DNA of 64,000 bases from Rhodothalassiaceae bacterium (lineage in GTDB: Bacteria > Pseudomonadota > Alphaproteobacteria > Sphingomonadales > Rhodothalassiaceae), in contig BPKC01000001.1 of assembly GCA_026004935.1 (NCBI GenBank), positions 620,001 through 684,000 on the forward strand, written 5' to 3'. The notes under the pieces were generated by a model. That model saw only the letters and a program-made list of their open reading frames with translations. It ran no database searches and was not told the origin of the DNA. The stretch's first letter is position 1; every line of letters starts with the position of its first letter. The translations under genes were made by a program, and so were the position numbers. Positions 11,433 to 52,823 of this stretch are shown piece by piece.

Positions 11433-11870
11433 TCAGGACCGGGGCGGGGCGGATCCGCCGTCGCGCTTATCGGCCTCGTCGGGGTGCGGGTGGTCGACAT
11501 CCACGATCACCGGCGGCACCGCGTAAGGATCGACCGGCGTCAGATCGGCCGGCGGCAGCGCGCATTGCGGGCGCGTGATGCCGCAATCCCAGGCGAAGCG
11601 GTCGGGCAGCTTGCGCGCCGCGTCACCGGGATGAAAGCGGCAGATACACAGCACATTGGCAAAGCAGGCGGTGATTCCCTCATGGGCCGCATCGCAGCGC
11701 GGCGGCTCGGCGGCGGCCGGTGCGGCCTCGGGCGCGGCCTCGGGTGCGGTCTCGGGAGCGGGAGGCTGCTGCTGAGCCCTCGCCGCGGCCGCAAACAGCA
11801 TCGCCAGCGCGATGACAAGCCCCGGCCCGGGGGCACGCATGATCCGGCTCGACCACCTGCGGACGCCCAT
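11433..11870 (-). CDS. Hypothetical secreted cysteine-containing protein
   Basis: 145 residues from ATG 11870, with AAGGGA 8 nt upstream; ATG 11840 is an alternative. A basic N-region precedes a hydrophobic core and an ARAQ signal-peptidase-like site near residue 31. A Glu/Ala/Pro repeat (PETAPEAAPEAAPAA) links to a small domain with Cys in PPRCDAA, TACFA, LCICRF, WDCG and PQCAL: six cysteines in about 60 residues, probably oxidised in the periplasm. Family not recognised. Convergent with usg (15-base gap). Its 5' side holds a long untranslated region with an FNR-type box about 290 bases upstream. Confidence 0.6.
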   Translation of the reverse strand: MGVRRWSSRIMRAPGPGLVIALAMLFAAAARAQQQPPAPETAPEAAPEAAPAAAEPPRCDAAHEGITACFANVLCICRFHPGDAARKLPDRFAWDCGITRPQCALPPADLTPVDPYAVPPVIVDVDHPHPDEADKRDGGSAPPRS

Positions 11871-11964: not shown

Positions 11965-11997
11965 GAAAGAAAGGGGCGGTCCGGAACCGGACCGCCC
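11965..11997 (-). terminator. Hairpin with U-rich tail (leftward)
   Basis: GGGCGGTCCGG and CCGGACCGCCC form a perfect 11-bp stem with a two-base loop at 11974-11997. Read on the minus strand it is followed by CCTTTCTTTC, an interrupted T-tract, making a plausible intrinsic terminator for a leftward transcript. It lies upstream, not downstream, of the annotated leftward gene ending at 11433, so it would end a separate upstream transcript or attenuate that gene. Confidence 0.5.
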
Positions 11998-12037
11998 GAG
12001 TGACGAGTCGTGCGTGCGGAAAGAGGAGAGATCCCAC

Positions 12038-12166
12038 ATGCCGGTGAAAGGCGCTTGGCGCTTCAGCCGATGCGATGGGCACCCCATCGACACATGCTGC
12101 GGCGTCATTCGCGTCTTCGCGCCGGCCAAAAATGCGCCTGGCAGATTCCGCGCGGGGCGGATTTGA
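12038..12166 (+). CDS. Candidate small ORF (42 aa)
   Basis: An ATG at 12038 follows the strong SD-like GGAAAGAGGAGAG (about 7 nt spacing) and opens 42 codons ending in TGA at 12164-12166, inside the FNR-type palindrome. The peptide starts MPVKGAWRFSR, has three cysteines (RCDG and TCCG) and a basic end. Third-position GC looks lower than in neighbouring genes, which argues against coding. The same stretch on the other strand could be a small RNA with a CU-rich loop. Low confidence. Confidence 0.25.
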   Translation: MPVKGAWRFSRCDGHPIDTCCGVIRVFAPAKNAPGRFRAGRI

Positions 12167-12178
12167 TCCAGATCAAAT
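12161..12178. promoter_or_regulatory. FNR/FixK-type operator (perfect palindrome)
   Basis: ATTTGATC-CA-GATCAAAT is a perfect 18-base palindrome containing TTGAT-N4-ATCAA, the consensus of the Crp/FNR-family regulators FNR, FnrL and FixK. The nearest leftward gene starts at 11870. Rightward there is no gene before 14363 except the leftward ggt. The site therefore either drives a long leader for the gene at 11433-11870 or an unannotated transcript. A box alone is not proof of regulation. Confidence 0.7.
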
Positions 12179-12388
12179 TTGCGCTACAAAATCGGCTGAA
12201 TCCGCCAGAAATTTCGTATCAGATGGAGCGGCGGCCCCCTCGCCGCCGCGATGGCGACCCGCGGAAGCTGGGGCCGCCGCGCCTGCTCTGCGCGGCCGAC
12301 CCGGCGCGCCGTTCTTTCCTCTCCGCTGCCCCCTCGTGGCGGGTCTTCCCGACAGTGGAGAGGGGTCTGCCGGGCGCGGGCCGGCCGG

Positions 12389-50505: not shown

Positions 50506-52823
50506 CCGGATCCCGTGCAGGCAGAAAGGAATCGCGCAGCGGCGCCCGCAAGGCCGCCACCCCCCGCAAGGCGAAGCGTGCCGGTGCGCTTCCGACCCGC
50601 GAGGAGCTGCTCGGCTATCTGGAGACGGCCGAAGGCAAGGTCACGAAGCGCGAGATCGCCCGGGCCTTCCGGCTCAAGGGTGCGGCGCGGGTGCAGCTCA
50701 AGGGCCTGCTGAAGGAGCTCGAGGAGGAGGGCGTCATCGCCCGCGACGAGGGCCGCGCGCTCAGGCTCGCCCACCGTCTGCCGCATGTGATGGTGGTGGA
50801 GGTCACCGGCATCGACGAGCTCGGCGATCTGGCGGCCAGGCCCGTGCACTGGGAGCGGCCGGAGCCGCCGCCGCCCATCCACCTCGCCCCGCCGAAGGGC
50901 CGCGCGGGCCCCGCCGTGGGGGTCGGCGAGCGCGTGCTGGTGCGTCTGCAGCCGGCGGAAGGCGAGCCGGGCTATGTGGGGCGCATCGTCAAGGTTCTGG
51001 AGGGCGCGCCGAAGACCGTGCTCGGCGTCTTCCACGGCGGCGAGCTGGGCGGACGCGTGGTCTCGGTGGAGCGCAAGCAGCGCACGGAGTTCGCGGTCCT
51101 GCCCGAGGACACGGGCGGCGCGCGCGACGGCGAGCTCGTGCTGGCGGAGGTCCTGCCCCAGCGGCGCGGGCGCCACTACGGGCTGAAGCGGGTGCGCATC
51201 CGCGAGCGCTACGGGGATGTCAGCGACCCGCGCCACATCTCGCTGATCGCCATCCACCAGTACGGCCTGCGCACGGCCTTCCCGCCCGCCGTGCTGAAGG
51301 AGGCCGGGCGCGCGCGCCCCTTCACGCTCGAGGGCCGCGAGGATCTGCGGGACATTCCCTTGATCACCATCGATCCGGCGGATGCGCGCGACCATGACGA
51401 TGCCGTCTTCGCCGAGCCCGATCCGGAGCATCCCGGCGGCTGGCATCTCATCGTCGCGATCGCCGACGTCGCGCATTACGTGCGGCCCGGCTCGGCGCTG
51501 GACGAGGAGGCGCTGGAGCGCGGCAACTCGGCATACTTCCCGGATCGTGTCGTCCCCATGCTGCCCGAGGCGCTCTCGGCCGATCTGTGCTCGCTGATGC
51601 CGGAGGTCGACAGGCCCTGCCTCGCCGTCCACATCTGGATCGACGAAAACGGCCGCAAGCGCCGCCACCGCTTCGTGCGCGCGGTGATGCGCTCGGCGGC
51701 GAATCTCGCCTACGAGCAGGTGGAGGCGGCGGTGGTGGAGGGCCGCCCCGGCATCGTCGACGACGCGTTTCGCGCGCGCGTGCTGCGCCCCCTCTACGAG
51801 GCGCACCGCGCGCTCGCCCAGGAGCGCCGGCGGCGCGGCGCGCTCGAGATCGAGTCGGACGAGCGCGAGATCCTCCTCGGCGAGGACGGCCGGGTGGCCG
51901 ACGTGCGCCCGCGCCCGAGGCTTCTCGCCCATCGCGTGATCGAGGACATGATGATCGCGGCCAATGTCGCGGCCGCCGAGGAGCTCGAGCGCCACGCGCT
52001 CCCCCTGATCTACCGCGTGCACGAGCCGCCGGCGCCCGAAAAGGTGGAGGCGCTGCGCGAATTCCTCGAGTCGCTCGACTACCGCTGGCCGCGCGCGGGC
52101 ACGATCACGCCGCGCATGTTCAACCGCGTGCTCCGGCATTTCCGCGGCACGCCCCATGAGCGGCTGGTGAACGAGGTGGTGCTGCGCACCCAGATGCAGG
52201 CGCGCTACGACCCCGAGAACCGGGGGCACTTCGGCCTCGCGCTCAGACGCTATGCCCACTTCACATCGCCCATCCGGCGCTACGCGGACCTCGTGATCCA
52301 CCGCGGCCTTCTGCATGCCCTGGGCTTCAGGGATGCTGGGTTCGAAAAGATGCCGCTTTCCCGGCTCGACGAGATCGCGGCCCACATCTCGTCCACCGAG
52401 CGCATCGCCGAGGCGGCCGAGCGCGACAGCATCGACCGGTATCTGGCCGCCTATCTCGAGGGCCGCGTGGGCGCGGTGCTGCGCGGCGTCATCACCGGGG
52501 TCACCCGCTTCGGCCTGTTCGTGACGCTGGAGCCGTCTGGCGGCACCGGGCTCATCCCGATCTCCGAGCTCGGCGCGGACTGGTACGCCTTCGACGAGAA
52601 GCGCCACCTGCTCGAAGGCCGCCGGCACGGGCGGGTGTTCCGGCTCGGCGACCGCGTGCGGGTCCGCCTGATCGAGACCGAGCCCATCACGGGCGCCATC
52701 CGGCTTGCCCTCGTCGAGACGGAAGCGGGCGAGGAGACGGAGACCGGCCGCCGGCGCGGCCGCCGCCCGGCGGCGGACGGGCGCAACCGGCGCGCGCCGC
52801 GGCGACGCCGGAAAACCACATGA
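50502..52823 (+). CDS. rnr: Ribonuclease R
   Basis: 773 residues. A winged-helix-like N-terminus (EELLGYLETAEGKVTKREIARAF), cold-shock-like domains, the RNB catalytic core with ITIDPADARDHDDAVFAE, PEVDRPCLAVHIWID and YAHFTSPIRRYADLVIHR, and a C-terminal S1 domain followed by an Arg-rich tail. It degrades structured RNA 3'-5'. The ATG overlaps the topA stop by four bases. The last 30 residues are low-complexity basic. Confidence 0.96.
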   Translation: MTGSRAGRKESRSGARKAATPRKAKRAGALPTREELLGYLETAEGKVTKREIARAFRLKGAARVQLKGLLKELEEEGVIARDEGRALRLAHRLPHVMVVEVTGIDELGDLAARPVHWERPEPPPPIHLAPPKGRAGPAVGVGERVLVRLQPAEGEPGYVGRIVKVLEGAPKTVLGVFHGGELGGRVVSVERKQRTEFAVLPEDTGGARDGELVLAEVLPQRRGRHYGLKRVRIRERYGDVSDPRHISLIAIHQYGLRTAFPPAVLKEAGRARPFTLEGREDLRDIPLITIDPADARDHDDAVFAEPDPEHPGGWHLIVAIADVAHYVRPGSALDEEALERGNSAYFPDRVVPMLPEALSADLCSLMPEVDRPCLAVHIWIDENGRKRRHRFVRAVMRSAANLAYEQVEAAVVEGRPGIVDDAFRARVLRPLYEAHRALAQERRRRGALEIESDEREILLGEDGRVADVRPRPRLLAHRVIEDMMIAANVAAAEELERHALPLIYRVHEPPAPEKVEALREFLESLDYRWPRAGTITPRMFNRVLRHFRGTPHERLVNEVVLRTQMQARYDPENRGHFGLALRRYAHFTSPIRRYADLVIHRGLLHALGFRDAGFEKMPLSRLDEIAAHISSTERIAEAAERDSIDRYLAAYLEGRVGAVLRGVITGVTRFGLFVTLEPSGGTGLIPISELGADWYAFDEKRHLLEGRRHGRVFRLGDRVRVRLIETEPITGAIRLALVETEAGEETETGRRRGRRPAADGRNRRAPRRRRKTT

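Follow-up and report, generated by a model that had tools for sequence, protein, structure and literature searches.

A single, isolated FNR/FixK box in an intergenic region of the window (the whole 64-kb stretch of DNA analysed) raises the question of what it regulates. The box (TTGATCCAGATCAA, 12163-12176, assigned to neither strand) is the only exact match to TTGATN4ATCAA in these 64 kb, and the closest leftward gene start is ~240 nt or more away, in agreement with the original prediction that it lies far from any matching gene start. The 18 bases at 12161-12178 had been described as a perfect palindrome; both 8-nt arms, ATTTGATC and GATCAAAT, are perfectly symmetric, but the central CA that separates them is non-complementary, making the description a slight overstatement. 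Allowing up to one mismatch, two FNR sites were seen in the window compared to 0.29 expected, and exact boxes occur nine times genome-wide compared to none for the reversed-pattern control. An FNR-like site with one mismatch, TTGATCACCATCGA, is found at 51360-51373. There is also a copy of TGATACGAA at 12209-12222 on the minus strand, upstream of the box by ~35-45 bp, which is kept in G001, a genome of the same genus, within diverged surroundings, its G001 version forming ATGAT-N4-ATCAT.

The sequence TTGATCCAGATCAA or its complement also precedes nosR, ccoN, ubiT and a narK-like MFS gene in the same genome, and further boxes lie ahead of one universal-stress-like and one porin-like gene. The genes ccoN and ubiT were assigned by TIGR00780 and NF047962, respectively, and the NosR-like gene has a Fer4_5 match besides a weak FMN-binding one; our own inspection of the sequences is the basis for the names NosR, NarK, universal stress and porin. 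This set of box-preceded genes has the membership typical of an FNR regulon, one of whose words is identical to the box at 12163. The genome also encodes a candidate regulator (G000:C1:~922000), an FnrL-like protein with an N-terminal CX2CX7C motif, an ETVSR recognition helix and an extra central cysteine that aligns with the fourth cluster cysteine of solved FNR. Its top NCBIfam match is FnrL, with a score below the model cut-off. A gene for Hfq is present as well.

The direction of transcription was addressed using the spacing between the box and the -10 element in 11 comparison promoters, each with an FNR box and an assigned downstream gene, drawn from this genome, G005 and G006. In 8 of these 11, the dinucleotide [CT]A lies exactly 22 nt past the box, and it is found at any other offset in three or fewer. 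Reading leftward from the box, the hexamer at offset 22 is CAGGCG in the window (12135-12140, minus strand), which would place the box centre at -41.5, and TAGCGT in G001. GC or CC stands directly before these hexamers, which also holds for several of the other promoters. Reading rightward, the hexamers at FNR spacing are AATCCG and TTTTTA in the two species, and rightward transcription was rejected because neither resembles a -10 element. Class II spacing is found in the leftward direction only, in both species, which supports leftward transcription from the box. By E. coli standards the predicted -10 element is weak, which counts against the explanation that we favor below.

Promoter spacing would place the 5' end of the transcript near 12128. 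Leftward of this position lies a predicted Rho-independent terminator, a stem-loop at 11974-11997 (minus strand) whose 10 pairs (9 of them G-C) close a 4-nt loop, with the tail CTTTCTTTC behind it at 11965-11973. The hairpin and tail are where the original prediction had placed them, ending at 11965, but the stem has 10 pairs rather than the proposed 11 bp. The T-tract is interrupted by a C, a second point that counts against our favored explanation. Together, the box, the -10 element and the terminator delimit a predicted sRNA of about 164 nt (12128 to 11965, minus strand), close to the ~160-nt terminated leftward RNA that had been proposed, and it folds with -73.4 kcal/mol (z -2.6). Within the fold, the CU-rich stretch at 12019-12034 forms a loop, with UCUCUCCUCU at 12022-12031 (minus strand). 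A small peptide encoded by the block around this loop was considered and rejected, as a 1-nt indel inside the block between the two species breaks the minus-strand frames and the frame is not conserved. The locus has its own predicted promoter and Rho-independent terminator and appears to be non-coding, as is looked for in the gene of a trans-acting sRNA.

Comparison with G001, a fragmented MAG and the sole other genome of the genus in the comparison, shows which parts of the locus are conserved. Both species share the order ggt, box, core, terminator, small secreted-protein gene and usg-like gene, and the box is 14/14 identical and in the same place. The 132 alignment columns that follow the box are identical at 45/132, the random level, and near the terminator the block GGATCTCTCCTCTT..GCACGCACGACTCGTC, which holds the CU-rich loop, is identical at 30/32. 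The distance from box to block is 145 vs 148 nt. The G001 terminator has another stem sequence in the same place, still a G+C-rich leftward hairpin with a TTTTT tail. Local folds of both species place the CU-rich stretch in a hairpin loop on different stem pairs, the outer stem being UGUGGGA/UUCCGCA (window) or GCUGA/UCAGC (G001); on inspection there is one two-sided change, G-C to U-A, although two sequences are too few for statistics. In the full-length G001 fold this hairpin sits inside a larger stem. Thus box, CU-rich loop and hairpin, the three elements whose conservation in relatives had been proposed as a check, are all kept in G001, as are the -10 element and the 3' pairing block, and the remainder has diverged. 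The G001 terminator loop (L002:1447-1490) bears a second CU-rich stretch, CCTCTCTCCCC, which is absent from the window terminator.

Searches in wider sets of genomes point to a narrow distribution. BLAST of the whole intergenic region against 99 relatives found the core to be common to G001 alone, the eight remaining matches being short, and the element was not found downstream of ggt in G003. A profile of the block found no further homologue in 147 genomes; the matches inspected, in G113, G104, G132 and G002, were rejected because they have no upstream FNR box, and the one in G113 looks like the start of katG, in antisense. A pattern search of 296 genomes of the order also gave no further homologue, with a pattern whose gap was 1 nt off and which missed the window's own site. 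Against Rfam, the locus matched no sRNA family in gathering or E-value mode, and the FnrS-family covariance model was unmatched at its gathering score and at E up to 5. The CcsR1 or CCUCCUCCC-motif model (RF02791) scored 14.1 bits compared to a gathering score of 65.3, on the other strand and outside the sRNA. These results suggest that the sRNA is most likely genus-restricted and new, of a known kind and absent from Rfam. Its occurrence in just two species, one of them represented by a fragmented MAG, counts against the explanation favored below.

The conserved block also led to a candidate target. A genome-wide search with a 43-nt profile built on this block recovered the block itself (E 3.7e-10), followed by the antisense strand of G000:C1:1885937-1885973 (E 0.04), the sole credible non-self site. 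This site comprises the leader, Shine-Dalgarno sequence and start codon of a gene for an 857-aa TonB-dependent receptor (L104:1473-4043, equal to G000:C1:1885972-1888542), which has the promoter TTGACA-N18-TAAACT. In the predicted duplex, sRNA nt 87-128 (12001-12042, minus strand) form 36 base pairs, including two G-U pairs, with mRNA positions -36 to +6; the centre of this sRNA region is conserved in G001. The duplex energy is -60.4 kcal/mol, compared to means of -33.5 (sd 4.1) for leader shuffles and -36.4 (sd 4.1) for sRNA shuffles, and 0 of 2000 shuffles in each set were as good. Of the 390 start-codon leaders in the window, a single one, the antisense of the sRNA itself, exceeded the receptor duplex, the next leader reaching -52.4 kcal/mol. 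A full co-fold, which includes the cost of self-structure, gained 31 kcal/mol. CU-rich sequences pair with any purine-rich Shine-Dalgarno, so some of the duplex energy would arise in any case; a pairing of 36 bp also exceeds the usual length for a trans-acting sRNA, which counts against the explanation favored here. The general idea that the CU-rich loop could face purine-rich ribosome binding sites gains in this receptor leader a specific candidate.

The receptor of G001 (74%) is cut by a contig end and its start is missing, so that within the genus the complementarity is predicted from one species; the G001 block paired with the receptor leader of the present genome at -52.1 kcal/mol. Receptor orthologues were found in G004 (78% identity, N-terminal part) and G005 (61%), which represent two genera. 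The sRNA block was undetected in both, its absence being uncertain in G004, which is 64% complete, and the orthologue leaders pair at background, at -38 and -36 kcal/mol or weaker. A TTGACA/TAAACT-type promoter is retained in both orthologues, and the complementary leader is absent. G004 retains the receptor promoter and a AAGCTTAAACT stretch, and G005 retains them less strictly, despite the diverged leaders, which suggests additional shared control of the receptor. Elsewhere in the genome, the leader of a second TonB-dependent receptor, GGTGTGGAGAGAGGGAGAGACGCATATG (L115, G000:C1:2801373-2802116, minus strand), is predicted to pair with the sRNA block at -50.9 kcal/mol and is thus a weaker candidate target, and all remaining receptor leaders scanned ranked below it.

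The energy of this second leader, together with window starts reaching -52.4 kcal/mol and a CU-rich loop that is conserved as in anti-Shine-Dalgarno sRNAs, would fit an FNR-driven sRNA whose true targets are many mRNAs contacted through the loop alone, the receptor match being incidental or one of several. We regard this as unlikely, given that the conserved block runs 16 nt beyond the CU stretch (GCACGCACGACUCGUC) and that this GCACGCACGACUCGUC part sets the receptor leader apart by about 8 kcal/mol. The gene at 11433-11870, which starts some 95 nt beyond the hairpin and encodes a small secreted protein, offers another reading, in which the box drives the leader of this gene, with the hairpin acting as a regulated attenuator. 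It has the same position and strand in G001, but a G+C-rich hairpin with a T-rich tail intervenes in both species, the gene is without a Pfam or NCBIfam match, and the conserved block and its antisense match would be left unexplained, making an attenuator improbable.

Most improbable of all is that the block is read as something other than a regulatory RNA. On the plus strand it does read as a leader, resembling that of the receptor, with a Shine-Dalgarno sequence (AGAGGAGAG) and an ATG at 12039 that could start a small ORF; by eye, however, this ORF has no counterpart in G001, and the T-tract and the FNR -10 element are exclusive to the minus strand. A small peptide encoded on the minus strand, the variant of this reading, meets the same frame-breaking indel noted above.

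We therefore consider the probable explanation to be an FNR-activated trans-acting sRNA that pairs with the translation start of the receptor mRNA and represses the receptor at low oxygen. The box, its spacing, the direction, the terminator, the conservation, the regulator and Hfq genes and the complementarity were all read from the sequence. When oxygen is low, the FnrL-like protein in its [4Fe-4S] form would bind the box centred at -41.5 and activate leftward transcription of the ~164-nt RNA (11965-12128, minus strand), which would terminate at the hairpin 11974-11997. The block at 12001-12042, partly displayed as a CU-rich hairpin loop, would pair with the receptor leader, Shine-Dalgarno sequence and AUG, blocking ribosome loading and probably promoting mRNA decay, most likely with Hfq. 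The receptor would thus be switched off once respiration turns anaerobic. Transcription, its response to oxygen and the use of Hfq are what we infer from these features, and repression is the expected direction of regulation because the pairing covers the Shine-Dalgarno sequence and AUG.

Known systems provide partial parallels. FnrS and NarS are established FNR-controlled sRNAs of E. coli, and FnrS, found in Escherichia coli and other enterobacteria, is activated by FNR, made anaerobically and represses mRNAs that are dispensable without oxygen (PMC8139620). The RNA proposed here would likewise be an FNR-activated repressor at low oxygen, but unlike FnrS its locus has no Rfam match, it is predicted to act mainly on a TonB-dependent receptor, and its predicted pairing is unusually long. 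RusT of Caulobacter crescentus acts together with Hfq to repress several mRNAs for TonB-dependent receptors and responds to iron through NtrYX (PMC11005374). By description, it is the similar case of an alphaproteobacterial sRNA against TonB-dependent receptors, whereas the predicted sRNA would be under oxygen control through FNR. The original prediction had further held that Crp/FNR-controlled sRNAs with CU-rich loops are known in alphaproteobacteria. This is only partly right: PcrZ of Rhodobacter sphaeroides is a low-oxygen-induced, FnrL-dependent sRNA, but it has a PrrA site and needs PrrA, and its control by FnrL may be indirect (PMC8139620); unlike the predicted sRNA, it targets photosynthesis genes. 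CcsR1 shares the CU-rich loop motif, with only the sub-threshold match given above. A phrase search of the open-access literature found no FNR-, FixK- or FnrL-dependent alphaproteobacterial sRNA. The class of sRNA is itself known, and the novelty would therefore lie in the combination of FNR control, a TonB-dependent receptor and an unusually long target match.

Because the complementarity extends over 36 bp and spans the start codon, it suggests, as a tentative idea, that the sRNA gene could have arisen when the region around its target's translation start was copied in inverted orientation and came under the control of an FNR promoter, giving an sRNA dedicated to one receptor. The long antisense match may offer a usable case for the origin of trans-acting sRNAs, and the reading proposed here points to a single target with a single pairing site. 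If true, it would directly tie the FNR oxygen switch to outer-membrane receptor content in alphaproteobacteria.
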